Below are positions 26,833 to 61,311 of a stretch of DNA of 64,000 nt, one piece after another. A program made the translations under genes and the position numbers. This DNA comes from Pyxidicoccus trucidator (GTDB taxonomy: Bacteria > Myxococcota > Myxococcia > Myxococcales > Myxococcaceae): contig NZ_JAAIXZ010000001.1 in the NCBI RefSeq assembly GCF_010894435.1, forward strand, positions 1,084,322 through 1,148,321, read 5' to 3'. Every line of letters begins with the position of its first letter. Position 1 is the stretch's first letter. Below the pieces are notes generated by a model. The model had not been told where the DNA came from, ran no database searches, and saw only the letters and a program-made list of their open reading frames with translations.

Positions 26833-26859
26833 ATCACAGTGTGATGACCGGAGTTACAC
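26833..26859 (+). promoter_or_regulatory. Composite operator candidate ATCACAGTGTGAT-N7-GTTACAC
   Basis: A 13-base palindrome (26833-26845) is followed after exactly seven bases by GTTACAC (26853-26859), ending 117 bases before the lipoprotein start. The minus strand at 44421-44395 has GTCACAGTGTGAC-N7-GTCACAC upstream of the second RND operon. Identical spacing argues for one regulator acting on both operons. Confidence 0.5.
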
Positions 26860-26976
26860 GTCCGTCGTTGGCGGCAGCCTCCGTCACATCGTCGATTCGT
26901 GGGGTTGCATCGGGGGACCGCATGGTCCGGGACTTGCTCAACGGGGGCTGTCCCGCGCCGCCTCACGAGGTCCGTC

Positions 26977-27192
26977 ATGCGCCGAATCGGTTGTGTCCTC
27001 GCAAGCCTGCTCATGCTCACCGCCTGCGCTTCCGAGCCTCGGAGATTGCCCTCCGCGGTGGACCCGTCGAACCCGGATGCGCCCGAGGCCCCAGTCGCCG
27101 AGCTTCCAAGCTCGCTCGTCGCTCCCCATGCGTCCGACGCAGGACAGCCTCCATCCACTCCCTCCGGCCATGAGCATGGAGCGCATCCGTGA
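26977..27192 (+). CDS. Small lipoprotein heading the multicopper oxidase operon
   Basis: 71-residue predicted lipoprotein, lipobox MLTAC (Cys17), then a Pro/Ala-rich mature part ending in a His-rich tail (GHEHGAHP). ATG 26977 follows CGAGG. Its stop overlaps the GTG of the TolC-like gene by four bases, so it is the first gene of a coupled operon with an outer-membrane channel and a multicopper oxidase. The histidine tail fits periplasmic copper binding; no enzymatic domain fits in this length. Family not recognised beyond similarity in style to myxobacterial copper-operon lipoproteins. Confidence 0.6.
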   Translation: MRRIGCVLASLLMLTACASEPRRLPSAVDPSNPDAPEAPVAELPSSLVAPHASDAGQPPSTPSGHEHGAHP

Positions 27193-28631
27193 GCGCACGC
27201 GGACTCCTCTGCCTGGGACTGCTCGCGAGCGGCTGTGCGTCCATCCAGAAGGAGCGCGGCCATGCCGAAGTGGCGGCACTCGTCGAGGAACGGCTCGGCC
27301 GGAAGACGCGCTGGAACCAGGGGACGCCCGAGGATGCCGAGGTCGCCCGGCATCTCGATACGCTCCTCATGGAGGACCTCACCTCGGACCGAGCGGTGGA
27401 GGTGGCGTTGCTCAACAACCCCTCTCTTCAGTCCACGTACGAGGACCTGGGCGTGTCCCAGGCTGACATGGTGCAAGCGGGGCTGATCAGCAATCCGTCC
27501 CTCAGCGGAAGCATCGGCTTCCCCATCGCCGGAGTCGGCGTCTCAGAGCACGAGTTCTCCCTGGTGCAGGAGTTCATGGATATCTTCACCCTGCCCCTGC
27601 GCAAGCGCGTGGCCACTGAGCAGTTCATGGCCGACACCCTGCGCGTGGCGCACGAGGCCCTCGCCACCGCGGCCGAGGTGCGCAAGACGTACAGCGAGGT
27701 GCAGGCGCGCCAGCAGCTCGTGGAGCTGCGCCGCATGGTGCTGACGGCGGCGGAGGCGGCGGCCGACCTCGCGACCCGGCAACGCGAAGCGGGCAACATC
27801 ACCGAGCTGGACCTGGCCAGCGAGCGCGCCAGCGCCGAGGAAGCCCGGCTCGACCTGGCACAGGAGGAGCTGTCGCTGGTGGAGGACCGGGAGCACCTCA
27901 ACCGCTTGCTGGGACTCTGGGGACCACGCACTCAGTGGAAGGTCTCCGAGCAGCTTCCGGCACTGCCTTCCCAGGAGGCCTCGCTGGAGCGGCTGGAGTC
28001 ACTCGCCATCCGGCAGCGCCTGGACATCGACGCGGCGCGGAAGCAGGCCTCGCTCTTGTGGAACGCGCTGGAGCTGGCGCGGAGCACGCGCTACTTCGGG
28101 CGCGTCGAGGTGGGGGTCCACACGCACCGGGACGCGGACGGGCCTCGCCTCTTCGGGCCCACCCTGACGCTGGAGCTGCCCATCTTCGACCAGCGCCAGG
28201 CCCTCATCGCCAAACTGGAGGCCCAGCACCGCCAGGGCGAGCGGCGGCTCATGGAGCTGTCCATCAATGCCCGCTCGGAGGTCCGCGCTGCGCGCGCCCG
28301 GCTGCTGTCCCTGCGCATGATGGCCGAGCGCTACCAACGGGTGGTGCTGCCCCTGCGCGAGAAGGTCGTCGAGCAGGCCCAGCTCCAGTACAACGGCATG
28401 CAGCTTGGCCTCTACGCACTGCTCGCCGCGAAGCGGGAGCAGGTGGAGGCCTACCGCTCCTACATCGAAGCCGTGCGCGACTACTGGATGGCGCGCGCCG
28501 AGCTGGAGCGACTCGTGGGGGGACGCCTTCCCGGACAGACGACGCAGCCCTCACCACCCGAGACACAGCCCGACCACGGCCAGCCCCGTGACGGCGGCAC
28601 GGAGACTCCCCATGAGCATGGACCCCAGTGA
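27189..28631 (+). CDS. TolC-family outer-membrane lipoprotein of the copper oxidase operon
   Basis: 480-residue outer-membrane factor. Seen: lipobox ASGC (Cys16), two OEP halves beginning around SDRAVEVALLNNPSLQSTYED and SLERLESLAIRQRLDIDAAR, long heptad helices, and a Pro/His-rich C-terminal extension (TPHEHGPQ) reminiscent of the preceding lipoprotein tail. No matching RND pump or adaptor is adjacent; instead a multicopper oxidase follows with a 20-base overlap. It may serve one of the two RND systems nearby or act as a copper-storage and export channel. Start GTG 27189, coupled to the upstream stop. Confidence 0.8.
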   Translation: MSARGLLCLGLLASGCASIQKERGHAEVAALVEERLGRKTRWNQGTPEDAEVARHLDTLLMEDLTSDRAVEVALLNNPSLQSTYEDLGVSQADMVQAGLISNPSLSGSIGFPIAGVGVSEHEFSLVQEFMDIFTLPLRKRVATEQFMADTLRVAHEALATAAEVRKTYSEVQARQQLVELRRMVLTAAEAAADLATRQREAGNITELDLASERASAEEARLDLAQEELSLVEDREHLNRLLGLWGPRTQWKVSEQLPALPSQEASLERLESLAIRQRLDIDAARKQASLLWNALELARSTRYFGRVEVGVHTHRDADGPRLFGPTLTLELPIFDQRQALIAKLEAQHRQGERRLMELSINARSEVRAARARLLSLRMMAERYQRVVLPLREKVVEQAQLQYNGMQLGLYALLAAKREQVEAYRSYIEAVRDYWMARAELERLVGGRLPGQTTQPSPPETQPDHGQPRDGGTETPHEHGPQ

Positions 28632-30096
28632 TACCGGGCAGGCAGCCGACGACAGCACCGAGCCCCAGGAGCGCACGGAGGGCATTGCAGGCCCCCTGAC
28701 GCGGCGGAGCATGCTGGCCACGGCGGGCGCCACGCTCGCGGGCGGTGCGCTGCTGCTCAGGGGCGCCACGGCCCAGGCGCAGTCGGACGTCCCGGGCGCT
28801 CGCAAGCCTCGCGAGGGCTCCGCGGCGGACACCGGCCGGCGGTATGCGCGACAGGACTGGCAGGCTCCGGGAGTGCCGGGCCGGGACTACCGGCCCGTCG
28901 TCGTGCCCAACGGCACGAAGCTGCCCTGGAAGGCGGTGGACGGCGTGAAGGTCTTCCATCTCGTGGCGGAGGAGGTGGAGCACGAGTTCGCTCCCGGCCT
29001 GAAGGCCTTCTGCTGGGGCTACAACGGGCAGGTGCACGGGCCCACCATCGAGGTGGTGGAGGGAGACCGGGTCCGCTTCTACGTCACCAACCGGCTGCCC
29101 GCGGCCACCACCGTGCACTGGCACGGCATCCTGCTGCCCAACGGCATGGACGGCGTGGGCGGCCTCAACCAGAAGGCCATCGCCCCGGGCGAGACGTTCC
29201 GCTACGAGTTCACCGTGCGCCAGTCGGGCATGGGCATGTACCACTCGCACCATGACGAGATGACGCAGATGGCGCTGGGCATGGCGGGGCTGTTCGTCAT
29301 CCACCCGCGCCGGCCCGTGGGTCCTCGCATCGACCGGGACTTCGCCATCCTGCTGCACGAGTGGCGCATCGACGTCGGCACCCGGCGGCCGAACCCGAAC
29401 GAGATGACGGACTTCAACGTGCTCACGATGAACGCGAAGGCCTTCCCGGGCACGGAGCCGCTCGTGGTGCGAAAGGGCGAGCGCGTGCGCATCCGCCTGG
29501 GCAACCTGTCCGCGACGGACCACCACCCCATCCACCTGCACGGCTACCAGTTCCGCATCACCGAGACGGACGGTGGCCGCCTCGCCGAGTCCGCGCAGTG
29601 GCCGGAGACGACGGTGCTGGTGCCCGTGGGCAGCACGCGCACCATCGAGTTCGTCGCGGACGAGCCCGGCGACTGGGCCATGCACTGCCACATGACGCAC
29701 CACCTGATGAACCAGATGGGCCACGAGTTCCCCAACATGATTGGCGTGAAGCCGGGCGGGCTGGACGCGAAGGTGCGCACGCTGCTGCCGGGCTACATGA
29801 CCATGGGCCAGACAGGCATGGGCGAGATGGTGGACATGGGCATGGCCGTCCCGGCCAACTCGATTCCCATGATGGGCGGCAAGGGCAAGCACGACACCAT
29901 CACCATGGGTGGCATGTTCACCGTGCTCAAGGTGCGCGAGCGGTTGGACGGCTACGGGGACCCGGGCTGGTACGAGAATCCGCCCGGCACGCTCGCGGTG
30001 GCGGCGAGCACGGACGAGCTGCGCCGGGACGGCATCGACGTGAGTACGACACCGGCGGCCGAGCCCGGCTCACCGGATGGCACCCGGCGGGGGTGA
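28612..30096 (+). CDS. TAT-exported multicopper oxidase, CopA/CuoA-like
   Basis: Periplasmic copper oxidase of 494 residues, expected to oxidise Cu(I) to less toxic Cu(II). Seen: twin-arginine signal with RRSMLATAG (Arg31-32) and a hydrophobic stretch, then cupredoxin domains with the four copper-ligand clusters HWHG, HSHHDEM, HPIHLHG and HCHMTHH. A methionine-rich segment near the C-terminus (GYMTMGQTGMGEMVDMGM, then MMGGK) resembles Met-rich Cu(I)-binding inserts of CueO and CopA. The start at 28612 follows GGAG and lies inside the end of the TolC-like gene. All ligands are present, so an active enzyme is expected. Substrate preference (copper versus phenolics) is inferred from context. Confidence 0.9.
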   Translation: MSMDPSDTGQAADDSTEPQERTEGIAGPLTRRSMLATAGATLAGGALLLRGATAQAQSDVPGARKPREGSAADTGRRYARQDWQAPGVPGRDYRPVVVPNGTKLPWKAVDGVKVFHLVAEEVEHEFAPGLKAFCWGYNGQVHGPTIEVVEGDRVRFYVTNRLPAATTVHWHGILLPNGMDGVGGLNQKAIAPGETFRYEFTVRQSGMGMYHSHHDEMTQMALGMAGLFVIHPRRPVGPRIDRDFAILLHEWRIDVGTRRPNPNEMTDFNVLTMNAKAFPGTEPLVVRKGERVRIRLGNLSATDHHPIHLHGYQFRITETDGGRLAESAQWPETTVLVPVGSTRTIEFVADEPGDWAMHCHMTHHLMNQMGHEFPNMIGVKPGGLDAKVRTLLPGYMTMGQTGMGEMVDMGMAVPANSIPMMGGKGKHDTITMGGMFTVLKVRERLDGYGDPGWYENPPGTLAVAASTDELRRDGIDVSTTPAAEPGSPDGTRRG

Positions 30097-35113: not shown

Positions 35114-36133
35114 TCACGCGGGCGGGAGCTCGTTGTAGCCCGCATCGCCGTAGGGCTTGAGCCGCTCCAACCAGAGAGCCTCCAGCACGAGCAGCTCCTC
35201 CTTCGGGTCCGCGCCGGGCTCCTCGGAGGGAGGCAGGACGTCGAGCACGTCGAAGGAGAAGCTGTCGGCGCCGTAGCGCTTCCAGTCCTCCAGCAGCGCG
35301 GGGATGCGCGGCATGCCGGTGGTCAGCTCGAAGCGGATGCGGTTGAGCGCGCCGGGGAGATTGAGGCTGGACCCGACCAGGACCTTGCCATTGGCGTGGT
35401 TGCGGACCGCGAACACGCCCATGGTCGGAGGCTTCTCCTTGTAGGCGCGCTTCAGCTCGGCACGACTCGACTTGCCGCCACTCGGCTGCGACGGGGTTTC
35501 CACGGGAGCTTCATCAGAGGACATGGGAGCCTTCCTGGGTGAGGGAGAGGGAGTGCGCTTCATCGCGCGAGGAGGTGGGGCCAGACGGGCGAGCCGCACC
35601 GCGAGCCGGTCATGGGCAGCCCGGTCGAGCGGCGCCACCCAGTCGGGACCTGCCAGCGCCCAGTCAGCGTCGGCGAGGTCCACACCCAGCGTCGTGAGGA
35701 GGCTGGCCTCGCAGACGAAGAACTGCCGGCGGAAGGGAAAGAGGTAGCCCCCGTCCGCCCGAAGTGAAGCGAGCGCCTCCTCGTAGGAGGAGAACCAGCG
35801 GTTGAGGAAGAGGCCCCCGACGCGGGACAGCAGGGCCTCGAAGTCCACACCGGGCGTGGCGTCCTCCTCGCGTGCGTCCTTGAGCTCTGCCCACGACGCG
35901 AACCCCTGCTCGCGGGCGATGACCGCCAGCGCGTGCTTGCGCTGCACCGAGTCCCTCCGAGCGAGCAGCTCGCCGGGTGACAGGGCCGCGAAGACGGGCA
36001 GCGCGCGCAGCCGCTCAGCCGCCCGGCTGGCGCGCGACGTGTCTGACGAGCACAGCTCCTTGAGCAGGAGCGATGCGCGGACCTTGCATTCCTGGAGGGA
36101 GAGTGGCGCGGCGGTGCGCGAGACGGTTCCCAT
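35114..36133 (-). CDS. GIY-YIG-like domain protein with N-terminal helical region
   Basis: 339-residue protein in two parts. Residues 1-190 are helical and include QRKHALAVIAREQGFASWAELK, a motif I associate with a small domain found next to glyoxalase- or ankyrin-type proteins. Residues 191-225 form a Pro/Ser-rich linker with two internal methionines that could start a shorter product. Residues 228-335 look like a GIY-YIG nuclease: GVFAVRNHANGKVLVGSS in place of the GIY...YIG strands, an arginine in LNRIRFEL, and a glutamate in LVLEALWLE. The tyrosines of the classic motif are missing, so activity is doubtful. ATG 36133 is preferred; the longer frame to 36259 adds unconserved residues. Confidence 0.6.
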   Translation of the reverse strand: MGTVSRTAAPLSLQECKVRASLLLKELCSSDTSRASRAAERLRALPVFAALSPGELLARRDSVQRKHALAVIAREQGFASWAELKDAREEDATPGVDFEALLSRVGGLFLNRWFSSYEEALASLRADGGYLFPFRRQFFVCEASLLTTLGVDLADADWALAGPDWVAPLDRAAHDRLAVRLARLAPPPRAMKRTPSPSPRKAPMSSDEAPVETPSQPSGGKSSRAELKRAYKEKPPTMGVFAVRNHANGKVLVGSSLNLPGALNRIRFELTTGMPRIPALLEDWKRYGADSFSFDVLDVLPPSEEPGADPKEELLVLEALWLERLKPYGDAGYNELPPA

Positions 36134-36313
36134 GGCAAGTCCCTGGCATACGGCCCTTACCCGAGAAATGGGCCGTGGAAGGAACTCAGCGAGAACTGTC
36201 GAACTGCCGGGAGAAACGAGGGTGACGTCGTCTTTTTCGGGCCAGGCGCCCCTCGGCACCTGCCGGAGAGTTAACGAGGGGCCGGGGTCGCCGGCAAGGC
36301 CTTTCTCATCCGC

Positions 36314-36886
36314 TCACGCGCGGGACTTCTTGCACGAGCAGTCCAGGCAGCCGTGCGTGGCGCACGTCCCACAGCTCCGCTCGAGCTGCTTCTTCAGCGC
36401 CTGCCGGGCGCGGTGCAACCGCACGCCCGCGTTGTTGGCGGTGATGCCCTCCTCCTTCGCCACGTCGGTCACGCCGCGCTCCTCCAGGTCCACCTTGCGC
36501 ACCAGGTCCGCGTACTCGGGCTTGAGGGTGGGCAGCAGCTCGCCGACGCAGGCGCAGACAGTCGCCTTCAGCTCCGGGTCGTCGGTGGCCTCCGTGGCCT
36601 CGCGGGCCTCGCGCTCCAGCGCGCGTCCTTCCGCGGCCTGCTTGCGGTAGTGGTCCACCAGCGCGTTGCGCAGCAGCCGGTAGAACCACGTCACCGCGCC
36701 CTCGCCGTCTCGCAGCGCCCCGCCCTTCTCCAGCGTCTTCACGAAGGCCGACTGGAGGATTTCCTCGGCCACCGCCCGGCTGCCCACGCGCCGCTCCAGG
36801 AACGACAGGAACTGGCGATGGTTGCCCACCAGCGCGCCCACCACGTCCTCTCCCGCCGCCTCCATGTCCTGCTGCGCCCCGCTCAT
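36314..36886 (-). CDS. CorE-type metal-responsive ECF sigma factor
   Basis: ECF sigma factor of 190 residues. Seen: region 2 about 20-85 (EEILQSAFVKTLE, VTWFYRLLRNALVDHYRK), a CXC pair in the linker (Cys111, Cys113), region 4 about 115-168, and a C-terminal cysteine-rich tail with Cys172, 175, 180, 183, 185 and His178. The linker CXC plus the Cys/His tail is the hallmark of the CorE group (ECF44) of Myxococcus, which sense copper or cadmium/zinc directly without an anti-sigma factor. It is the last gene of the RND operon and overlaps the cupredoxin lipoprotein by ATGA. Autoregulation of this operon is inferred. Confidence 0.87.
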   Translation of the reverse strand: MSGAQQDMEAAGEDVVGALVGNHRQFLSFLERRVGSRAVAEEILQSAFVKTLEKGGALRDGEGAVTWFYRLLRNALVDHYRKQAAEGRALEREAREATEATDDPELKATVCACVGELLPTLKPEYADLVRKVDLEERGVTDVAKEEGITANNAGVRLHRARQALKKQLERSCGTCATHGCLDCSCKKSRA

Positions 36887-38037
36887 CGCACCACCAGCGT
36901 GCCCTTCATCATCTGCATGCCGCAGGAGAAGGGGAACGTCCCTGCCTTGTCCGGAACGAAGTCCACCACCGTCTCCGACAAGCCGGGCAGCGGTCGCTTC
37001 ACGCCGAAGTCGGGGATGAGCAGCTCGTCCCCACACCCGCCCGAGTCCTTGCGCACGAAGCGCAGCCGCGCCGGCACGCCCTGCTTCAGCGTCACCTCGC
37101 TCGGCTGGTAGCCGCCCTGCACGGTGATGGTCACCTCCTGCGCCGCCCCCGCCTTCACCTCCGCTCCGGCGGGTGGAGGAGCCTTCGCCGCATCCACGGG
37201 CGTCAGCATGAAGCCGATGAAGTACTCCGGCTCATCCGGCATGGGCAGGCGCACCGTCACCTCGCGCTCACCGTCAGCGGGAGGCAGCTTCCCGGTGAGG
37301 AACTCCCCCGTCGTCCCCGGGAGCAGCGGCGCGGAAGCACCGACTGCCTCCAGCGTGCCCTTCTTCCCCGTCAGTGGCAGCGGTTGGCGGAAGGCATCCG
37401 TCACCCAGACGCGCACCTCGCCGGACTTCAGCGACAGCACCTCCAGGTGCGTGTCCCCGCTCATCGCGACGATGCCGCCGTGCAGGGGCGTGTGGTCGTG
37501 CGCCTGCATCTGCGTGGGAGAAGCGCCCTCCGGCCCGTGCCCGTGCGCCTCCAGGTGCGCGGAGAAGCGCGCCACCTCCGGCTTCCCGTCCCGCACCACC
37601 GTCACCACCATCGTCAGATGGTCGTCCGAGTGCTCCGGCCCCTGGCCCGCCAGATGGTCGCCCGAGGGCGTCAGCTTCACTTCCGGGTAGCCGCCCTTCG
37701 CCACCTTCACCGTGCCGCTGGCGCCATCCACTGGACGCACCTGGAGGTCCTCGTCCAGCAGGTAGACGCGATACGTGCCTCCCCGTGCCGCCACCAACTC
37801 CATGTGTCCGCGCGGTGTGGCTTCCACCAGGCCGCCATGCGGCGAGATGTGGGCATGAGGCGCTGCCTCGGCGTGAGCATGGGGCGCCCCGCCACCGTGC
37901 GAGTGCGGCGCTGCCTCGTCGTGCGGCTTTGACGGAGTGGCGGCCCTCGGAGCCTGTGCCTCAGCGGGTGCATCCTTCTTGCTGCACGCGGCCACCAGCC
38001 CAAGGGCCATCACCGCCGCGATGATTCGCTTCCCCAT
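36883..38037 (-). CDS. Cupredoxin-domain lipoprotein, histidine-rich
   Basis: 384-residue lipoprotein, lipobox LVAAC (Cys18), start ATG 38037 after GGAGG. Seen: a His-rich segment about 34-75 (HSHGGGAPHAHAE, HAHISPHGG), two beta-rich repeats containing HGG-type turns (about 70-150 and 190-265), and a C-terminal cupredoxin domain about 305-384 with ITVQGGYQPSEVTLKQG, the metal-side Cys in DSGGCGDELL and FSCGMQMMKG. Such domains bind copper on the periplasmic or outer-membrane face and may hand metal to the RND pump. It lies between pump gene and sigma factor in the operon. Confidence 0.8.
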   Translation of the reverse strand: MGKRIIAAVMALGLVAACSKKDAPAEAQAPRAATPSKPHDEAAPHSHGGGAPHAHAEAAPHAHISPHGGLVEATPRGHMELVAARGGTYRVYLLDEDLQVRPVDGASGTVKVAKGGYPEVKLTPSGDHLAGQGPEHSDDHLTMVVTVVRDGKPEVARFSAHLEAHGHGPEGASPTQMQAHDHTPLHGGIVAMSGDTHLEVLSLKSGEVRVWVTDAFRQPLPLTGKKGTLEAVGASAPLLPGTTGEFLTGKLPPADGEREVTVRLPMPDEPEYFIGFMLTPVDAAKAPPPAGAEVKAGAAQEVTITVQGGYQPSEVTLKQGVPARLRFVRKDSGGCGDELLIPDFGVKRPLPGLSETVVDFVPDKAGTFPFSCGMQMMKGTLVVR

Positions 38038-38072
38038 CGAACATCCTCCAAAGTTCCTCACGGTGCCCGCCT

Positions 38073-41000
38073 TCACAGCGAGCCCGCGAGCCGCTCCGCC
38101 GGAGGTGCTGCCTCCGGGAGAGCGGTGTCCTCTTCGGCGCGCGCCGCCGCCTTGCGCGCCAGGTAGCGCTCCAGGGCTGGACGCCCGAAGCGGAAGAACA
38201 CGGCCGGCGTGACGAGCAGGTCCAACAGGGTGGAGCTGATGAGCCCCCCGAGGATGACCGTCGCCACCGGGTGCAGAATCTCCTTACCGGGCGCCCCCGA
38301 CGCGAGCGCCAGCGGCACCAGCGCCAGCCCCGCCGTCAGCGCCGTCATCAGCACCGGAACCAGCCGCTCCAGCGAACCACGGAGCACCAGGTCCTTGCTG
38401 AACACCTCGCCCTCCACCTCCACCAGGTGCAGGTAGTGGGAGATGAGCATGATGGTGTTGCGGCTGGCGATGCCACACAGGGTGATGAAGCCCACCAGCG
38501 TGGCCACCGACAGCGACTGCCCGGTGAGCACCACCGCTGTCACGCTGCCCACCAGCGCCAGGGGGATGTTGAGCATCACCTGGAGCACCAGCCGCACCGA
38601 GCGGAAGTGCGCGTACAGCACCAGGAACATGCCCGCCAGCGACAGCAGGGACAGCAGGGCGATGAGCCGCGTGGCGGACTGCTGGCTCTCGAACTGGCCC
38701 TCATAGGTGATGAAGGCACCGGGCGGCAGCGACACCTGCGAGGCCACGCGCTCGCGGACCTGCTCCACCGCGCCGCCGAGGTCCCTCCCCGCCACGTTCG
38801 CCATCACCACGATGCGCCGCTGCAGGTGGTCATGGTGGATGACGTTGGGCCCCTGTGACTCCACCACTTCCGCCACGGCTGCCACCGGGACCCGTGCTCC
38901 CGAGGGCGTGTCCACCAGCGCCCGCCGGAACGCCTCCGCGTCCACGCGTGAGCGCTCGTCGTACCGCACCAGCACGTCGAAGGTGCGCTGGCCCTCCAGC
39001 ACCTGCCCCACCACGATGCCGTTGAACGCCTTCTCCAGTTGCTCCGCCATGGCGCCGGGCTGCACGCCCAGCCGCGCCGCCTCCTCGCGCTTGAGCCGCA
39101 CCTGGAGCTGCGGAATCAGCGTCTGCTGCTCCACCTGCAGGTCCACGATGCCCGGCACGCCCGCCATGACGGACCGTATCTCTTCCGCCTTGCCGCGCAG
39201 CACGTCCAGGTCCTGCCCGAACAGCTTCACCGCCACCTGCGCGCGGATGCCCGACAGCAGGTGGTCCAGCCGGTGGGAGATGGGCTGCCCCACGGACACG
39301 GACATGCCCGGAAGCTGCGTGAGCCGCTCGCGAATGTCTCCGAGCACCACCTCCCGCGCGCGCCCGTCCTCTTCCTTGAAGTCCACGTCCAGCTCCGAGT
39401 AGTGGACGCCCTCCGCGTGCTCGTCCTGCTCGGCGCGGCCGGTGCGCCGGCCCACCGTCTTCACCTCGGGCACGCCCGCGATGAGGCGCTCGGCCAGCAG
39501 CCCGAAGCGGTTGGACTCCTCCAGCGACGTGCCCGGTGGCGCCACCAGAGTCACCGTGGCGGTGCCCTCGTTGAAGGGGGGAAGGAAGGAGCGACCCAGG
39601 AAGGGCACCACCGCCGCCGCCCCGAGCACCAGCACCGCCGCGCCCGTCATCACCGGACGGGGATGCGCCAGCGCGACCTCAAGCACCCGCTGCGCCCGCG
39701 CCTTCAGCCAGCGCACCAGCGCGCTGTCCCCATGCTCCAGGAAGCGCCCCTTCGGCAGCAGGTACGCGCACAACGCCGGAGTCACCGTGAGCGACACCAG
39801 CAGCGACGCGAGGATGGACACGATGTACGCCACGCCCAGCGGGGCGAAGAGCCGTCCCTCGATTCCGCCCAGTGCGAACAGCGGGACGAACACCAGCACC
39901 ACGATGAGCGTGGCGAAGACGATGGAGCCGCGCACCTCCGACGACGCCTTGAAGATGACGCGCAGCGTGGACTCCGGCTGGGGCTTCGCCCGGTTCTCCT
40001 TGAGCCGCCGGTACACGTTCTCCACGTCGACAATCGCGTCGTCCACCAGCTCGCCGATGGCCACGGCCAGGCCGCCCAGCGTCAGCGTGTTGATGGACAG
40101 GTCGAACGCCTTCATCACCAGCGCGGTGATGACCAGGGAGAGGGGAATCGCGGTGAGGGTAATCGCCGTGGTGCGCAGGTTGACGAGGAAGAGGAAGAGC
40201 ACCACCACCACCAGCAGCGCACCGTCGCGCAGGGCCTCGCTCACGTTGCCGATGGCCGAGCGGATGAAGTCCGCCTGCCGGAAGAGCGTCTCCACCCGCA
40301 CGTCCTCGGGCAGCGTGGCCCGCAGCTCCTTCAGCGCGGCATCCACCTTGCCGGTGAGCTCCAGCGTGCTGGCCCCGGGCTGCTTCTGCACCGCGAGGAT
40401 GACCGCGGAACGACCGTTCATTCCGCCGTCGCCCCGCTTCACCGCCGGCCCCACCACCACCTCGGCCACCTGCGACAGGCGCACGGGCACGCCGTCCCGC
40501 ACCGCCACCACCGTGCCGGCCAGGTCTTCCACGGACGCGCTGCGCGCGAGGTTGCGGACCAGGTACTCGCGGCCGCCCTTGTCCACGAAGCCGCCGGTGG
40601 TGTTGCCCTGCGACAGGCCCGCAGCGCGCTCCACGTCCTCGAAGGTGAGTCCGAAGGCGAGCAGCTTCTCCGGGTCCACCTTCACCTGGAACTGCTTCAC
40701 CCCGCCGCCCAGCACCGTCACCTGGGCGATGCCCGGAATCGTCAGCAGGCGCTGGCGGAGCGTCCAGTCCGCGAGCGAGCGCAGCTCCAGCTGCGACGTG
40801 CGCTCGCCCTCGCTCTGCACGCCGAGCAGCAGGATTTCGCCCATGATGGAGGACACCGGCGCCAGGTGCGGCGTCACGTCGCGAGGCAGCCGCTCGCGCG
40901 CCACCTGGAGCCGCTCCGACACGAGCTGCCGGTCCAGGTAGATGTCCGTGCCCCAGTCGAACTCCACGTAGACGATGGACAGACCCACGCCCGACGACGA

Positions 41001-41249
41001 GCGCACGCGTTGCACACCCGGCGCCCCGTTCATCGCCGTCTCAATCGGCGTGGTGACGAGCGTCTCCACCTCCTCCGGGGACAGGCCACCCGCCTCCGTC
41101 ATCACCGTCACGGTGGGACGGTTGAGGTCGGGGAACACGTCCACCGGCAGGCTCGTGACGGCCCAGCCGCCGTAGAGCAGCAGCGCCACCGCCGCCAGCA
41201 CGACGAACAGCCGGTGCCTCAGCGCGAGGAGGATGACGCGGTCAATCAC
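38073..41249 (-). CDS. Heavy-metal RND efflux pump, CzcA/CusA family (second system)
   Basis: Inner-membrane proton-driven transporter of 1058 residues. Seen: TM1 near residues 14-33, porter domains, and TM4 with VAIGELVDDAIVDVENVYRRL carrying acidic residues of the proton relay, which differs from the other pump in this window (AVGLLVDAAIIVTEN). The two systems are therefore diverged paralogues, not a recent duplication. GTG 41249 overlaps the adaptor stop by four bases (GTGA). With a CorE-like sigma and a cupredoxin lipoprotein in the same operon, copper or cadmium/zinc is the likely load, but the sequence does not settle which. Confidence 0.9.
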   Translation of the reverse strand: MIDRVILLALRHRLFVVLAAVALLLYGGWAVTSLPVDVFPDLNRPTVTVMTEAGGLSPEEVETLVTTPIETAMNGAPGVQRVRSSSGVGLSIVYVEFDWGTDIYLDRQLVSERLQVARERLPRDVTPHLAPVSSIMGEILLLGVQSEGERTSQLELRSLADWTLRQRLLTIPGIAQVTVLGGGVKQFQVKVDPEKLLAFGLTFEDVERAAGLSQGNTTGGFVDKGGREYLVRNLARSASVEDLAGTVVAVRDGVPVRLSQVAEVVVGPAVKRGDGGMNGRSAVILAVQKQPGASTLELTGKVDAALKELRATLPEDVRVETLFRQADFIRSAIGNVSEALRDGALLVVVVLFLFLVNLRTTAITLTAIPLSLVITALVMKAFDLSINTLTLGGLAVAIGELVDDAIVDVENVYRRLKENRAKPQPESTLRVIFKASSEVRGSIVFATLIVVLVFVPLFALGGIEGRLFAPLGVAYIVSILASLLVSLTVTPALCAYLLPKGRFLEHGDSALVRWLKARAQRVLEVALAHPRPVMTGAAVLVLGAAAVVPFLGRSFLPPFNEGTATVTLVAPPGTSLEESNRFGLLAERLIAGVPEVKTVGRRTGRAEQDEHAEGVHYSELDVDFKEEDGRAREVVLGDIRERLTQLPGMSVSVGQPISHRLDHLLSGIRAQVAVKLFGQDLDVLRGKAEEIRSVMAGVPGIVDLQVEQQTLIPQLQVRLKREEAARLGVQPGAMAEQLEKAFNGIVVGQVLEGQRTFDVLVRYDERSRVDAEAFRRALVDTPSGARVPVAAVAEVVESQGPNVIHHDHLQRRIVVMANVAGRDLGGAVEQVRERVASQVSLPPGAFITYEGQFESQQSATRLIALLSLLSLAGMFLVLYAHFRSVRLVLQVMLNIPLALVGSVTAVVLTGQSLSVATLVGFITLCGIASRNTIMLISHYLHLVEVEGEVFSKDLVLRGSLERLVPVLMTALTAGLALVPLALASGAPGKEILHPVATVILGGLISSTLLDLLVTPAVFFRFGRPALERYLARKAAARAEEDTALPEAAPPAERLAGSL

Positions 41250-42520
41250 CTGCCGCCTCCCCTCGCCATGCGCAGCGCCGCCACGCCGCCCACCACCACG
41301 CGCTCGCCCGTCTTCAGGCCCTGGCGCACCTCACGCCACTCGCCGTCCCGTCCACCGAGCCCCACCGGCCGCAGCTCGAACGCCTCGGGCGCGGTATGGA
41401 CGAAGACGAAGGCGCGGCCCTCCTCCTCCACCACCGCCGCCGCGGGCACCGCCAGCGCGTCGCGTCGGCCACCCTCGCCGATGGCCACGTCCACGAACAT
41501 GCCGGGCCGCAGCCGGCCGTCCCGGTTGTCCGCCTCGAACAGGACGCGCACGCTGCGCGAGGACTCATCCACAAGTTGGCCCACGTGGTACAGCCGCGCC
41601 GCGAAGTGCTGGCCCGCGTACGCGGGCGTTCCCACCAGCGCGCCGGATGCGCCCTCCACCCGCGCCACGTCGCCCTCGTACACGCGCGCTTCCACCCAGA
41701 CGACAGAGGCGTCCAGCACCGCGAACAGGGGCCGCGCCGGATCCACCTGCTCACCCACCGTGGCCCGGGCCTCCACCAGCACGCCGTCGATGGGCGCCAC
41801 CAGCGGGAAGCGCGCCGTGCCCTGGCCCTGGCGCGCGCCGGACAGCACGTCGCGCGCGGCCTTCGCGCGGCCCAATTCCTGCTCCGCCGTGCTCGCGGAG
41901 AGCCGTGACTGCTGCACTTCCTTCTCGGCCACCACGCCCTGCAGTGACTCCAAGCGCGTGAGGTCTCGCCGGGCCTGCTCCAGCGCCGCCTGCGCGCGGG
42001 ACACCTCCGCCTCCGCCTGGATGTAGCCCGTCGACAGGCCCGTGGCCTCCGAGGTGGAGAGGCTCTGCTGCACCAGCGCCAGCACCTCGCCGCGCTTCAC
42101 GCGCTGCCCCACCAGCGGCACCGACGCGCCCGACGCCAGCACGCGGCCCGGCACCGGCGCGGACACCTGCGCGTAGCGGTCCGTGCGCGGCACCACCTTG
42201 CCCGGAGCCACCAGTCGCGACTCCAGCGGCCGCACCGCCGCGCGCTGCGTGCGCACCTCCAGGAGGAACTGCGTCTCCTTGGGCACGGTGAAGGCCACGC
42301 CGGGGACAACGGGCTGCTGCTGCGTGGCCGGAGCCTGGGCGTGGCCCTCGTGAGCGTGGGCCCGAGGGCTCGCGAGCAGAACGAGACATATAAAGGATGC
42401 GGGCCACAAAAGTGGGCTGAACACCGACCCCGGCAACCTCGCACCCACACGGCGCCAGGAGCCCGCTGAGCCAGCACCAGCGCGGCGCGCGGAAGAACCC
42501 GGAGCCCTCGACCCGCTCAT
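41246..42520 (-). CDS. RND efflux periplasmic adaptor, CzcB family (second system)
   Basis: Membrane-fusion protein of up to 424 residues. Seen: a hydrophobic segment about 36-60 (LLWPASFICLVLLASPRAHA) acting as signal, then HEGHAQAP, barrel-sandwich parts around VSAPVPGRVLASGASVPLVGQRV, a coiled-coil hairpin (about 150-215) and the beta-barrel domain. ATG 42520 lies eight bases after the preceding stop; it places about 35 Arg/Ser-rich residues before the signal, so a downstream GTG may be the true start. Unlike the first system's adaptor it is not a lipoprotein and has only a short His motif. Confidence 0.85.
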   Translation of the reverse strand: MSGSRAPGSSARRAGAGSAGSWRRVGARLPGSVFSPLLWPASFICLVLLASPRAHAHEGHAQAPATQQQPVVPGVAFTVPKETQFLLEVRTQRAAVRPLESRLVAPGKVVPRTDRYAQVSAPVPGRVLASGASVPLVGQRVKRGEVLALVQQSLSTSEATGLSTGYIQAEAEVSRAQAALEQARRDLTRLESLQGVVAEKEVQQSRLSASTAEQELGRAKAARDVLSGARQGQGTARFPLVAPIDGVLVEARATVGEQVDPARPLFAVLDASVVWVEARVYEGDVARVEGASGALVGTPAYAGQHFAARLYHVGQLVDESSRSVRVLFEADNRDGRLRPGMFVDVAIGEGGRRDALAVPAAAVVEEEGRAFVFVHTAPEAFELRPVGLGGRDGEWREVRQGLKTGERVVVGGVAALRMARGGGR

Positions 42521-42528
42521 CGACTCGC

Positions 42529-43083
42529 TCACAGCATCCCCCGCTTGCGACGCGACACCCACCAGGCACCCGCCGCCACCATCAGCGCCACGCCGCCCGC
42601 GATACCCCAGCCGAGCTCCGCGCCGTGGTGAGCGTCATCGTCGTGCGCCTCTTCATGCTCCGCCTCCACGTGCACCGTCCCCAGCGCCAGCACGTCCACG
42701 GCGTCGCCCCGGGTCACCGTCGCGACGGCGGCCAGCTCCACCTCAGGCGCCAGCTCCGCCTCGACCACGTAGATGCCGGGCGACTCCATCCTCGGCACCA
42801 GCGACTGCACGGCGGCTCCCGTCAGCGTCAGCTCCACCTGGGCGCCGCTCACGGGTGCGTTCGTCGCGCTCTCCGCCACCAGCACGCGCACCGGCGTCTT
42901 CGGGCCCTCGGCGTGCTCCGGGTGCTTGAGCACCACCTCGAACACGTCTCCCGTCGCCGCCAGGACGTGCACCGCTGCGCCCGGGGTGGACACCTCGGGT
43001 GCCTTCCCGTGCGGCGCGCCCTCGTGTGCTCCCGCCACCAGAGGCAGCGCTACCAGCGGCAGCATCCACAGCATCCGTCTCAT
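42529..43083 (-). CDS. Membrane-anchored periplasmic protein inserted in the RND operon
   Basis: 184-residue protein: signal peptide (MLPLVALPLVAGA), histidine-containing start HEGAPHGK, an immunoglobulin-like beta domain about 35-135 (VFEVVLKHPE, TPVRVLVAES, PVSGAQVELTLTG), an acidic His-rich stretch (HEEAHDDDAHHG) and a C-terminal transmembrane segment (WGIAGGVALMVAAGAWW) with a basic cytosolic tail. Starts and stops are coupled to both neighbours (ATGA with the TolC-like gene). It probably binds metal or assists the adaptor in the periplasm. Family not recognised with certainty; similar small proteins occur in other CzcCBA operons. Confidence 0.65.
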   Translation of the reverse strand: MRRMLWMLPLVALPLVAGAHEGAPHGKAPEVSTPGAAVHVLAATGDVFEVVLKHPEHAEGPKTPVRVLVAESATNAPVSGAQVELTLTGAAVQSLVPRMESPGIYVVEAELAPEVELAAVATVTRGDAVDVLALGTVHVEAEHEEAHDDDAHHGAELGWGIAGGVALMVAAGAWWVSRRKRGML

Positions 43084-44315
43084 TGCGGCACCCCTCCCGT
43101 GGGCAGCCGACCTTCCGCACGCAGCAGCGCGGTGCGCGCGCGGGCCAGCTCCGCCGCCGCGTCCACGGTCTCCGCTCTCGCGGCGAAGGCCCTGTCCCGC
43201 GCGAGCAGCAGGGCGTCCAGGCCCAGCTCTCCCGCCTCGTAGGCGCGGCGAACCAGCTCCAGGTTGCGCTCGACCGAAGGCCGGGCCGTGTTCAGCGCCG
43301 TGTGCGCCGCTCGCGCGGCTTCGAACGCGCTTCGGGCCACGGCGGACTCCGCCTCCACCTCGCGCTCCCGTGCCACCCGCTCCGCCTCCCGCGCCGAGCG
43401 CCGCGCTCGAGCCTCCGCCAGCTCTCGCTGGTTGCGCTCCCACAAGGGCAGCGGCACCGACAACCGCGCCACCAGCAGGTGCTCGGTGTGCAGGTCGGAG
43501 ATGGCGCCGTGCGACTCGGGGCGCCGCTCACGCTCGTAGCCCACGCCCAGCGTCGGGTCCGGGAAGCGCTCGCGCCGCAGCAGCTCCACCTCCGCCTTCG
43601 CCGCGACCTCCTCCGCCCGCGCCGCCTGAAGCTCGGGACGCTCGTTCAGGAGAGGTGACGACGGAGCCTCTACCAGCACAGACACGCTCAGCGGAGCCGC
43701 CGCCGGACGACCCAGTCTGCGGTTCAGCGCCGCGCGTGCCGCATCCGACTCCGCCCGCGCCAACGCCGCCCGGGCTTCCGCACGCGCTCGCTCCAGCGTC
43801 GCGCCGTTACGGTCCAGCTCCGACACGTCTCCCGCCGCGAAGCGACGCTCCGTCGCCGCCTCCAGCTCCCGGGACAGGCTCAGCGCCTCCTCGGCGAGCC
43901 GCGCCCGCGCCTCGCGCCGCTCCAGCTCCACCGCCGCGCCCACCGCCCCCGCCGCCGCCTCCAGCACCGCCGCGCGCCTCCGTGCCCGAGCCGCGTCCAG
44001 CGAGGCGTCTGCCCGTTCCACGCGCAGGCCGCGCTGCCCCGCCACCTCCACCGTCTGACTCAGCATCATCTCCACGCGCAGCTCACCCTGGTCTCCGGTG
44101 AGCACGTCGCTGGCGGCCTCCACCTCCAGCTGCGGATTGTCCCGAAGCCACCGCCCGTCCGCCGAGCGCACGCCCTCCGCCGAGACCTCCTCCGCCCGCG
44201 CCGCCGCCACCTCGGGGCTGCGCTCCACCGCGTCGGACACCACGCGCTCCAACGTCCAGACCTCCGCGGGAGCGGCGGCCAGCATGAGCGACAGGGCGGC
44301 GGACACGGCGAGCAT
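43080..44315 (-). CDS. Outer-membrane efflux protein, TolC/CzcC family (second system)
   Basis: 411-residue channel protein, first gene of the second RND operon. Seen: signal peptide (LAVSAALSLMLAAAPAEV), OEP repeats starting LERVVSDAVERSPEVAAARAEE and LLNERPELQAARAEEVAAKA, long heptad-rich helices. ATG 44315 is supported by GAAGAGG upstream; the longer frame to 44528 runs through the regulatory region. The stop overlaps the following gene by four bases. The promoter region contains a composite palindrome (44395-44421) shared with the copper oxidase operon. Confidence 0.85.
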   Translation of the reverse strand: MLAVSAALSLMLAAAPAEVWTLERVVSDAVERSPEVAAARAEEVSAEGVRSADGRWLRDNPQLEVEAASDVLTGDQGELRVEMMLSQTVEVAGQRGLRVERADASLDAARARRRAAVLEAAAGAVGAAVELERREARARLAEEALSLSRELEAATERRFAAGDVSELDRNGATLERARAEARAALARAESDAARAALNRRLGRPAAAPLSVSVLVEAPSSPLLNERPELQAARAEEVAAKAEVELLRRERFPDPTLGVGYERERRPESHGAISDLHTEHLLVARLSVPLPLWERNQRELAEARARRSAREAERVAREREVEAESAVARSAFEAARAAHTALNTARPSVERNLELVRRAYEAGELGLDALLLARDRAFAARAETVDAAAELARARTALLRAEGRLPTGGVPQ

Positions 44316-44394
44316 GTCCTCTTCCCAACGCAAGTCGCGTACCCACCTGCGGCCCAGTGATTCCGCATACCTGCGAGGCGCGAACGGCCCCCAG

Positions 44395-44421
44395 GTGTGA
44401 CCGTCGCCGTCACACTGTGAC
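44395..44421 (-). promoter_or_regulatory. Composite operator candidate GTCACAGTGTGAC-N7-GTCACAC
   Basis: On the minus strand a 13-base palindrome (44421-44409) is followed after seven bases by GTCACAC (44401-44395), 79 bases before the TolC-like start. It matches the element at 26833-26859 in palindrome, centre base and spacing. The inner GTGTGAC/GTCACAC pair is also an inverted repeat. Confidence 0.5.
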
Positions 44422-52746: not shown

Positions 52747-55700
52747 CTACTCCGACGCTTCCCCTTCGCCCCCCTCGCTTTCCCCCGGGTCGATGACGTC
52801 CTGCTCTCCGTAGAACGTGGACGTATCGACCGTGAGGCTGCTGGTTGTGAGAGAGCCATCCGCGTGCTGCTCCACCGTGAAGTCAAAGGGGAAACTCTCC
52901 GCGAGGCTGTCGTCGCCGACCATGAGATCGACTCCCACCTGACCACCGCCGGAGATGAGGCGGCGGGATTCAACAATCCCTCCTGGCTGGTCCCAGGTCA
53001 CATCGACGGAAGTGATCTGGACATTGCCCATTTCCAGGAGCTCACCCGGCGTTTCCCCGGAATAGAGTCGGTCGCTCAGCAACTCTTGGAGCTCGACGTC
53101 GCTCGGAGGCGGGGGGAACGATGACGTGCGTCCCTGCACTTCCTGCAGACCCCGCAGGAGGATTGCGCTCAGCCGGGCCCGCAGCTCGCGTGCCTGCACC
53201 TTCTGCCCCAGCGACTCGAGGATGTCGGCGAGGCTCCCCATTGCCCCACGCGTTAGCAGATGTTCCTCGCCAAGGAACTCCTTGAAACGAGACACCACCC
53301 TCTCTTCGAGAGCATGAGCAGGGGCGGGTTCTCCCATGGCGACCAGCGTGGCTGCCAGCTGGGATTCGGCGATGAGCGTATCAAGGTGGTCGAAACCGAA
53401 GGACTGGTGAAGCGTCGCGATTGCATCTTCCAGGAGGGCCCGCGCGGACCGGTGGTCGCCTGCGTGCTGAAGCACTTCCGCGAGCTGGGTCATCACCACC
53501 GCCGTCTGCGGGTGTCGGCCTTCATGGATGTGCCGCGACATGTCCAGGGCGAGTTCAAGCTGGATTCTCGCGCTCTTCAAATCATCCATTTCGAAAAACA
53601 CCGCGCCCAGGTCCATCAGGGCCACGACCAAGGCAGGGTCCGACGTCGATCTGATGCTCTCGCGAAGCGCGCTGAGCCGCTGTTCACAATGGTACCTAGA
53701 TTGGGAGTAATTGCCTTCGGCTCGCTCGACTGCGGCCATGCAGCCCAGCGCGTCGAGTGTCACGCGCGCATCGGCGCCGAGGGCCTCGGCAGCGTGCTCG
53801 TGAGCTTCCCCCGCGAAGAACCACGCTAACGAAAGGTCGCCCTTGGTCAACAGGAACTGACCCACACAGACGCCCAATTCCACGAATCGGGCTTTGTCGA
53901 GCTCGGGCAATGCAACATCACCCAACCTCTTGAAGACCTCTTGCGCATGCGGCAGACAGGCCCGCAGCACCGGCCAACGGGTCAACTCCCTCTGTGAGTC
54001 GGGGTTCATGAGGGTCAGCAGGCCCTGGCAGATTCGCATGAGTTCAGGTGTCGCGTCGGGGAACCTGTCGCGAAGGAACCCGGCCAGAAGCGGATGATTT
54101 AATCGAAGAGTTTGGATGCCCTCCTCCATTGCCATGGAGATGAGCCCCCTCTGCGCCAGGACTGGCGTTATCGCAATCAGGTTGGCATCGGTAGCCTCGA
54201 ACACCGAAACGGGAATTGGCGTCGGCGCGAATTGAGCGAGGACCCTCGCAAGCCACTTCGCCTGTTCTGACAACTCCTCGTAAATCGCCGTGAATTCTTC
54301 GACGACACTGCGGAATCCGGAGGGTGTACCTGGAGATAGGACACTCGCCTGCTCGTCAAGGAACTCCACGGCTCGCTTCTTGAGCCTAGCTAGCAACGAC
54401 TCCGGCTCTACGTTTCCTGCCCGCAGGCTCGCATTGAGCACCGTGAGCGCCAGGGGTAGGTTCCCTACCTGGTCAGCAATTTCCTTCCAAGTCTCTTGGG
54501 GCTGGCGGTCGCTCTCGATTCCGTACGTCAGGAGCGCGACGGCCGCATTCGAATCGAGTACGTCCAACTGGAGCTTTGTAGAGACGCCGTACCCCGCGCC
54601 TGCATCTCTGAGCGTTGCAAGCACCACGATGAAATCGGTGCTGGGACAGTACCAGGAGAGCGGCCTGGAGCGCCTTTCAGGATGCTGTGTTGGAATGTCA
54701 TCCACGACATAGAGGATCCGCGCTCGCTGGCCTTCTTCCCGCAGCGCACCGGCAAGCTCGCGACGAACATTTCGCCCTTCGCGCAGGAAAGATTCCAGCT
54801 CAGGTGCCTTTGGTCGAAGCACCCTGAGGATACCGTGCAACCGGGCCTCGAGTTGGTCGTCGCTGACACTTGCATCGACCCAGAAGACACCTCCGGGGTA
54901 GCTGCTCGGTCCGAACCGCTGGAGGTATTCGAGCGCGAAGCGGGTCTTCCCAACTCCAGCGCCCCCCTCCACCAATACAGTCCTCGATGGGCCGTGAAAC
55001 GTGAGCATGTCATCGAGCTGCCAGAGCGTGCTGGCACGGCCGACGAACGTCTCTCCTAGCAATGGAGAAATCGTGACGGGATGATGTCGGACGCGCCCCA
55101 GATCCTCGCGAGGAGGAAGGTTCCATGCTTCCCACAAGATGTCCTGAATGTCGGCATCCGAGACTCCCATGGTTCGGAGCCGCTCACGAATCCGAGGAGG
55201 CTTTGAAGCAAGCCGCATCCTGATGAGCGCGGCGATACCATTCACGTCGTCCGCTCGGGGCCACTGAATGTTTCTCAGCTCGATGGGTAGATGCTGGAAA
55301 GCCCTCTTGAGGTCTCGGTCGGCGGAGACAACGATAATGTGCTCCAATGCGGCTTCGCGCACTTCGCGTGTGCTCTTACTGGGCAAGCGGGTGTAGGGCA
55401 GGAGTGCGATACGCAGCTCCCGTCGGGAGAATTCGTTGGTCCAATAGGCCTCCCCGGCAACCACGATGACCACGCTTGCATCGAGGAGTGATTCGCCAAC
55501 GGCGCTACTCCACGTATCTCCAACAAGTGGAGGAGCGGCAAACGCCACTTCGGGGATAAGCGGCGACAGGATGGTTCTCAACGATTGGTGATCCAGCCTC
55601 GCAGGCGAGAGGAATACTCGGGCACGCGTCGCGAACGAAGGAGCCGCGCTCGTCTCCTGCTCCAGCACCGTCGTCAGTTCCCAGCGCTGCCCGTTCACAG

Positions 55701-56547
55701 CCCGGAACTGGAGCCGCTCCACGGCTCCCGGGAGAGGAACATGTGCCCCCGGCTCGGCCGCAACCAGCGTCCGGTGTTGCTGGCCGGCCTCTTCCCACGC
55801 CAGCTCCAGGAGCGGAGGGTGGGTATCGGGCAGCTCGAGTCGATGCCCTTCCTGCGCTTCGGGAGGGAGGAAGGAGATTCTCTCCGGCTCTCGCAGGAGC
55901 CGCACCGGCACGCCTGAGAGCTCATCCAACACCCGCCATGACCGAGCCGGCAGCCGCGCCGGAAGCGCGCCGTTGACACGGAGCCAGGTGCCATCGACCC
56001 GGGAAATGGTGGCCAACGAGAGCAGTGCCCCAGTCTCGGAGCGCTGGGCTCGCTCCGGCAGTCGGGGCAGCGCCCGCAGCGCCCACCGCGCGATTCCCAC
56101 GGCGCGACTGGGGCTCGACAGCATGGCCGTGAGCGCCGAGCCCAGCTCACGGTTCAGCGCCTCCTCGGAATGCCCGGCCAGCGCAGCCCATGTCACCTTC
56201 TCCTCCAGGGCCGCTGCGGGAGGGATAAATGGGTGGAAGCTCCGGGTCAGCCTCCAGGCGGCATCCAGCCGCGCGGGATTCCTCGCAAGCCGCTCCCTGA
56301 GCAGTTCGGCAACCTCCCTTCGGAACACGAACCCACCCGCGCCCGAGGACTCTACCAGTTGCCCGAACCACAGGTCCGCCTCCACCCCGACGCCCAGCTT
56401 CGGAGCGAAGACGAGCCGCGCCTTCCGCAGCAGCGCAGGCTCCACGCGTACGGCGAGCGACAGCACCTCCGCGAGCAGACCGAGTCCGGGAGACAGCCTC
56501 TCCGCCTGAGCGAGCAGGGTCTCGGCGCGCTGGCGTGGCTCGTTCAT
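52747..56547 (-). CDS. Large STAND protein: VMAP-like N-terminus, divergent TIR, NB-ARC NTPase, TPRs
   Basis: 1266-residue cytosolic protein, last gene of the conflict cassette. Architecture from the translation: 1-290 region with EPALLRKARLVFAPKL and GIARWALRALPRLPER, resembling N-terminal modules of vWA-MoxR-associated proteins; about 308-440 TIR-like fold with RARVFLSP and the helix NEFSRREL (Glu377 in the catalytic-glutamate position); NB-ARC-type STAND NTPase with P-loop GGAGVGKT (528-535), Walker B ILYVVDDI (611-618) and GNLPLAL; winged-helix region; TPRs about 885-1130; and an acidic beta-rich C-terminal domain. The ATG overlaps the vWA-like gene stop (ATGA). A sensor/effector switch that oligomerises on ligand is the inferred mode. 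Confidence 0.75.
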   Translation of the reverse strand: MNEPRQRAETLLAQAERLSPGLGLLAEVLSLAVRVEPALLRKARLVFAPKLGVGVEADLWFGQLVESSGAGGFVFRREVAELLRERLARNPARLDAAWRLTRSFHPFIPPAAALEEKVTWAALAGHSEEALNRELGSALTAMLSSPSRAVGIARWALRALPRLPERAQRSETGALLSLATISRVDGTWLRVNGALPARLPARSWRVLDELSGVPVRLLREPERISFLPPEAQEGHRLELPDTHPPLLELAWEEAGQQHRTLVAAEPGAHVPLPGAVERLQFRAVNGQRWELTTVLEQETSAAPSFATRARVFLSPARLDHQSLRTILSPLIPEVAFAAPPLVGDTWSSAVGESLLDASVVIVVAGEAYWTNEFSRRELRIALLPYTRLPSKSTREVREAALEHIIVVSADRDLKRAFQHLPIELRNIQWPRADDVNGIAALIRMRLASKPPRIRERLRTMGVSDADIQDILWEAWNLPPREDLGRVRHHPVTISPLLGETFVGRASTLWQLDDMLTFHGPSRTVLVEGGAGVGKTRFALEYLQRFGPSSYPGGVFWVDASVSDDQLEARLHGILRVLRPKAPELESFLREGRNVRRELAGALREEGQRARILYVVDDIPTQHPERRSRPLSWYCPSTDFIVVLATLRDAGAGYGVSTKLQLDVLDSNAAVALLTYGIESDRQPQETWKEIADQVGNLPLALTVLNASLRAGNVEPESLLARLKKRAVEFLDEQASVLSPGTPSGFRSVVEEFTAIYEELSEQAKWLARVLAQFAPTPIPVSVFEATDANLIAITPVLAQRGLISMAMEEGIQTLRLNHPLLAGFLRDRFPDATPELMRICQGLLTLMNPDSQRELTRWPVLRACLPHAQEVFKRLGDVALPELDKARFVELGVCVGQFLLTKGDLSLAWFFAGEAHEHAAEALGADARVTLDALGCMAAVERAEGNYSQSRYHCEQRLSALRESIRSTSDPALVVALMDLGAVFFEMDDLKSARIQLELALDMSRHIHEGRHPQTAVVMTQLAEVLQHAGDHRSARALLEDAIATLHQSFGFDHLDTLIAESQLAATLVAMGEPAPAHALEERVVSRFKEFLGEEHLLTRGAMGSLADILESLGQKVQARELRARLSAILLRGLQEVQGRTSSFPPPPSDVELQELLSDRLYSGETPGELLEMGNVQITSVDVTWDQPGGIVESRRLISGGGQVGVDLMVGDDSLAESFPFDFTVEQHADGSLTTSSLTVDTSTFYGEQDVIDPGESEGGEGEASE

Positions 56548-58490: not shown

Positions 58491-58523
58491 CTGATGCTCC
58501 TTCGCTGTGCCTGACGTGTGGGA

Positions 58524-59889: not shown

Positions 59890-61307
<1,418 letters not shown>

Positions 61308-61311
<4 letters not shown>

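Follow-up and report, generated by a model that had tools for sequence, protein, structure and literature searches.

Which factor reads the composite motif that stands in front of two separate metal operons in the stretch of 64,000 nucleotides of the Pyxidicoccus trucidator genome analyzed here (hereafter, the window)? The initial annotation described the two copies as identical and offered two readings: a common regulator, or the promoter of a CorE-like sigma factor encoded within the second operon, with GTYACAC as a -35-like box. The identity of the copies was borne out, as those at 26833–26859 (plus strand) and 44421–44395 (minus strand) are exact 27-mers with the same centre base, G, and equal N7 spacing, and annotation of both operons gave the gene contexts that had been described for them. 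When the window was searched for RTYACANTGTRAY-N7-GTYACAC with up to three mismatches, two matches were found, vs. 0.03 expected, and none of 100 shuffled sequences contained two. In a scan of the whole 12.67-Mb genome, copies with no mismatch were present only at these two sites, with no random scatter; the next-best matches were three sites with three mismatches, the same number as in a reversed-pattern control (three). The palindromic core, GTGTRAY-N7-RTYACAC, was likewise found exactly only at the same two places. Since these are the sole two copies in the genome, the motif marks two operons and is not a random or general element.

Read 5' to 3' toward the operon, the motif consists of three half-sites, RTYACA-N-TGTRAY-N7-RTYACAC. 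Positions 7–27 form a 21-bp inverted repeat, GTGTRAY-N7-RTYACAC, which the first half-site abuts. The 13-bp palindrome noted previously is the junction of this outer half-site with the inverted repeat, and the motif appears better read as three half-sites, of which the last two make up the 21-bp palindrome, than as a 13-bp palindrome plus a lone box. In operator 1 (26833–26859, plus strand), the half-sites are ATCACA (26833–26838), TGTGAT (26840–26845) and GTTACAC (26853–26859), and the palindrome, GTGTGAT-N7-GTTACAC, spans 26839–26859. Operator 2 (44395–44421, minus strand) reads GTCACA-G-TGTGAC-N7-GTCACAC, and its palindrome, GTGTGAC-N7-GTCACAC (44415–44395), has perfect 7-bp arms. Both are predicted enhancers for the response regulator CorR, described below. 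In an alignment of 48 sites, most positions of the three half-sites were invariant or nearly so, while the N7 spacer and the flanks were variable. We do not claim a fourth half-site, which would complete a symmetrical four-arm enhancer, as matches to the left arm were weakly above chance (3.35/7 in distant loci and 2.76 in closer loci, with a null value of 2.13).

Operon 1 (26977–30096, plus strand) encodes a small lipoprotein with no Pfam match (26977–27192), an outer-membrane efflux protein (OEP; 27189–28631, PF02321) and a multicopper oxidase (28588–30096, PF07732/PF07731). Operon 2 (44315–36314, minus strand) starts with another OEP (43080–44315, PF02321, with its ATG at 44315), followed by a small membrane protein (42529–43080), whose gene, read from the sequence and with an uncertain start, probably belongs to the operon, a CusB/CzcB-type membrane fusion protein (MFP; 41246–42562), a CusA/CzcA-type RND heavy-metal pump (38073–41249, over the TIGR00914 cut-off), a cupredoxin-domain protein (36883–38076, PF13473) and the CorE-like ECF sigma factor (36314–36886). 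The sigma factor resembles CorE (PMC3107203) and CorE2 of M. xanthus. Its CAC linker fits the CXC pattern, the four invariant cysteines of the Cys-rich domain are present, and the C-terminal CGTCATHGCLDCSC matches the spacing of CorE Cys181, 184, 189, 192 and 194, making five of the six CorE-domain cysteines. Unlike CorE, to which it is 59% identical, it has no equivalent of Cys206, and its nearest M. xanthus-type homolog is found at another locus (83%).

The context of the motif was surveyed in loci from about 30 myxobacterial genomes. It preceded one of the following: (a) the OEP–MFP–RND–cupredoxin–sigma operon, whose first gene begins about 80 bp beyond the motif; (b) the sigma gene directly, at seven loci with no RND genes in the operon; (c) the lipoprotein–OEP–multicopper oxidase operon; or (d) corS and the cuoA/Cus region. 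Operator 1 is conserved in front of its operon at 21 loci, and operator 2 at 12 RND-operon and seven sigma-operon loci. In M. xanthus-type genomes (e.g., G006, L062), the gene order matches that of the published curA operon (curA, cuoA, corS, corR and onward), and the motif lies between curA and cuoA and again between cuoA and corS. The M. xanthus genes curA, cuoA, corS and copA are copper-induced and depend on CorSR, of which CorR is a predicted sigma-54 activator (PMC3707914). At four Corallococcus loci (L142, L165, L170 and L183), we also observed a second CorE-like sigma gene, 54–58% identical, immediately upstream of the oxidase-operon operator.

The window encodes, about 16 kb from the motif, a counterpart of this system, an NtrC-type two-component pair (59890–62768, minus strand) that is absent from the initial annotation. 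With the M. xanthus-type CorR as query, the best match in the genome was the product of 59890–61311 (minus strand), at 68% identity vs. at most 48% for more than 60 other activators; in the reciprocal search in G006, the CorR of the curA operon was the sole match below 1e-135. This CorR ortholog, the proposed binder of both operators, has a receiver domain (PF00072), a sigma-54 AAA+ domain (PF00158) and a Fis-type helix-turn-helix (PF02954), and its translation contains the GAFTGA loop. The recognition helix is near-identical in the window CorR and the M. xanthus type; the recognition region, AAERAGMERESLHRLLKR, is identical in the two and unlike that of other activators. The CorS ortholog (61308–62768, minus strand) is a HAMP histidine kinase with 56% identity to the M. 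xanthus-type CorS, sensor region included. With CorR about 66–68% identical to the characterised type, the signal specificity could differ. No operator was found upstream of corS in the window's own corSR or in its closest relatives, unlike in the M. xanthus-type and distant loci.

The motif and CorR occur together. Within the genus, the motif was present in 24 of 24 genomes with CorR and in none of the three without it (G016, G018 and G025). Among 100 genomes, 32 had both the motif and CorR, one had only the motif, 19 had only CorR and 48 had neither, although these counts are inflated by related sequences and the P values are not independent. Motif matches in G065, which lacks CorR, were treated as chance, as a control match was found in the same genome and no metal genes lie nearby. 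Of another 22 CorR loci, most of them from distant families, 13 contained a degenerate form of the composite (score of at least 15; shuffle P of 0.0008 per locus) about 15–245 bp before corS; in several distant CorR genomes no recognisable site was found. When about 85,000 species were scanned for exact matches, the search yielded 47 stretches. Those in Myxococcus, Pyxidicoccus, Corallococcus, Hyalangium and Myxococcaceae MAGs adjoin the copper genes described here; those outside the myxobacteria, being single and with no copper-operon linkage beyond weak matches, were treated as chance. Two genomes (G010 and G026) carry two CorR types, about 85–92% and 68% identical to that of the window, and have four sites, two beside each type. 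The recognition helices of both types are identical in these genomes, and cross-talk is expected.

A GG-N10-GC element resembling the sigma-54 promoter TGGCAC-N5-TTGC was found at most 120 bp past the operator at 46 of 46 sites, in all four operon classes. The corresponding values were 19% for Markov shuffles, 15% for random DNA, 5/46 for the upstream side and 10/46 for the opposite strand. The genome carries one rpoN. In front of operon 1, the predicted promoter, TGGTCCGGGACTTGCT (26923–26938, plus strand), has GG at -24 and GC at -12 (26936–26937), and the centre of the palindrome lies about 100 bp upstream of the predicted +1. In front of operon 2, the predicted promoter is GGGTACGCGACTTGCG (44329–44344, minus strand), with the -12 GC at 44331–44330; its -24 box, GGGTAC, departs from TGGCAC, and the palindrome is centred about 87 bp upstream of the predicted +1 (around 44318). 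This predicted start falls about 3 nt before the ATG (region 44313–44344), a distance that suggests nearly leaderless mRNAs. Relatives show the same distance of about 3 nt, as does L034, in which the sigma gene comes next.

The element keeps a fixed spacing from the operator, starting 51–53 bp past it in the RND/sigma operons and 72–75 bp past it in most oxidase and corS promoters. Three oxidase promoters, that of the window among them, have a spacing of 61–64 bp; these shorter spacings (the window's own, G012 and G020) seem to have arisen by separate losses of about 10 and 12 bp, one helical turn. The series 51–53, 61–64 and 72–75 is suggestive of a rough phasing of operator and promoter on the DNA helix, with P of about 0.06 from only three independent classes. 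In G063, G074 and G089, the sigma-54 element is on the side of the divergent Cus genes. At L095 (G089) and L130 (G074), corS and the Cus-type efflux genes diverge from an interval that contains the operator; the element lies toward the efflux genes, and the enhancer at these loci might serve the divergent pair.

Alignment also revealed a conserved, IHF-like block between operator 1 and its promoter, GATTCGTGGGGTTG (26894–26907, plus strand). Here and at the equivalent positions in relatives, the block reads ATTCG-N5-TTG, with TTCAG-N4-TTG before corS and GGAATC before the RND operon. It may serve as an IHF site or as a second element of the promoter.

Taken with the synteny of the motif and corS, the co-occurrence with CorR and the sigma-54 elements strongly support the common regulator proposed at the outset, with the CorR encoded at 59890–61311 as the candidate. 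The proposal that GTYACAC is the -35 box, and the motif all or part of a promoter, read by the CorE-like sigma at 36314 did not fare as well. It has in its favor that the sigma gene lies within one of the two operons and that CorE-type sigmas control copper genes in M. xanthus (PMC3107203). However, we rejected it because motif and sigma each occur without the other: G016, G018 and G025 keep a CorE-like sigma (82–83% identity) and have neither motif nor CorR, while the more distant G063, G074, G080 and G089 carry both motif and CorR and no such sigma. Moreover, CorE-type promoters have a -35 box carrying AAC in the coding orientation and a G in the -10 at 16–18 nt (PMC3107203), and AAC is absent from both GTCACAC and GTTACAC in the operon orientation. 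With its three half-sites, the motif also exceeds a -35 box in length and symmetry, and no common -10 at a constant distance was apparent by eye, whereas the GG-N10-GC element is constant. We consider this reading very improbable, and the sigma at 36314 is probably subject to this regulation, not the factor that exerts it.

The candidacy of CorR could also be challenged from within the class of sigma-54 activators, of which the genome encodes more than 60, as CorR binding is deduced only from co-occurrence and synteny. A regulator co-evolving with CorSR, such as a different enhancer-binding protein or a repressor whose gene lies elsewhere, might bind the motif instead. However, in several families the motif immediately precedes corS, and there the neighbouring regulator gene is corR; the four sites in the two-CorR genomes are divided evenly between the CorR types. 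In addition, the M. xanthus-type genes beside the motif are genetically dependent on CorSR (PMC3707914). A separate regulator is thus an unlikely explanation. The repeats might instead be bound by an OmpR-type copper response regulator, similar to CusR or CopR, that activates a sigma-70 promoter, and OmpR-type CusSR/CopRS are the commonest copper two-component systems. Against this, OmpR-type activators do not typically show a 20-bp direct spacing and a 21-bp palindrome about 87–100 bp from the predicted start. The regulator that co-occurs with the motif carries a sigma-54 AAA+ domain, and none of the 46 sites lacks a sigma-54 element, so that we give this explanation almost no credence.

We therefore return to CorR, and judge it very likely that both composites are upstream activating sequences through which it switches on the two copper-detoxification operons from sigma-54 promoters. 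Weighing against this are the lack of an operator before the window's own corS, the distant CorR genomes in which no site was recognised and, for operon 2, the very short predicted leader and the divergent -24 box. In the mechanism that we propose from the sequence comparisons, periplasmic copper, the presumed signal, would be sensed by CorS, leading to phosphorylation of CorR. Dimers of CorR would then bind GTGTRAY-N7-RTYACAC plus the abutting half-site and, by looping out the 50–75 bp of intervening DNA, would open the sigma-54 polymerase at the -24/-12 element. Activation would yield the lipoprotein–OEP–multicopper oxidase and the OEP–MFP–RND–cupredoxin–CorE-like sigma operons; the metal specificity of the response is likewise presumed. 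Because operon 2 ends in the CorE-like sigma gene, the pathway would feed a second, metal-requiring sigma factor, made under CorR control and itself metal-gated, which would constitute a cascade. The cascade is supported by the loci where the operator stays with the sigma gene and the pump genes are absent, suggesting that the sigma itself is the selected target of the operator. On balance, we favor, with less assurance than for CorR binding, an arrangement in which a copper two-component system acts via sigma-54 directly above a metal-gated CorE-type ECF sigma, with a three-half-site operator unique to two operons. If so, a single promoter switch would place two sigma classes in series and couple periplasmic metal sensing by CorS to cytoplasmic sensing by the Cys-rich domain of the sigma.

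The system in the window resembles CorSR and curA of M. xanthus (PMC3707914) in the domain layout of the regulators (66–68% identity for CorR and 56% for CorS), the sigma-54 promoters, the copper-gene neighbours and the same composite operator before cuoA and corS. It differs in that the window's corSR lies outside a curA operon, with its own promoter without an operator, and in that the targets are the lipoprotein/OEP/oxidase and RND/cupredoxin/CorE-like sigma operons. It also differs from the CorE systems, as the window sigma appears to be a target of CorR and sigma-54 and not the factor that reads the motif.

The enhancer site of NtrC has the form TGCAC-N7-GTGCA. Like the enhancers of the NtrC family, the operators have palindromic half-sites about one turn apart, lie 80–110 bp upstream of a GG-N10-GC promoter and appear to show indels of about one helical turn; they differ in the sequence of the half-site, RTYACAC, and in the additional half-site that abuts the palindrome, so that three of four possible arms are present. 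ZraSR of E. coli is a metal-linked NtrC-type two-component system, and CorSR likewise pairs a metal-stress kinase with a sigma-54 activator. ZraR is a detectable relative of CorR (394 bits with the NCBIfam model), but the cut-off for ZraR, 760 bits, is far higher, and the targets and the operator differ.

CorSR, the sigma-54 control of copper genes and the CorE sigmas were already known from M. xanthus. No binding sequence for CorR turned up in the open-access literature searched. The following appear to be new: the sequence of the operator, its occurrence at just two operons, which operon is the second target, and the cascade from sigma-54 to a CorE-type sigma that this arrangement implies. 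The motif provides a candidate DNA target for CorR, a sigma-54 activator so far known only genetically, with a predicted regulon of just two operons in one genome. It predicts a two-sigma cascade, from sigma-54 to a CorE-type sigma, in metal resistance, and makes the unexplained wiring between CorSR and CorE-type sigmas approachable by a simple reporter test. It also sets right the obvious first assumption, that the ECF sigma encoded nearby reads the motif.

Two neighbouring regions were also observed. Directly downstream of corR, 52747–59732 encodes a TIR protein, a MoxR-like AAA ATPase, a protein of unknown type and an NB-ARC/TPR protein of 1266 aa, with lower third-position GC. The region has the look of a TIR/NLR-type cluster for defence or signalling that was inserted here, and its PADLOC matches were weak. 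Adjoining the sigma gene, in relatives as well, 35114–36259 encodes a conserved protein with no Pfam match, the C-terminal part of which resembles a GIY-YIG nuclease by eye (MGVFAVRNHANGKVLVGSS...).
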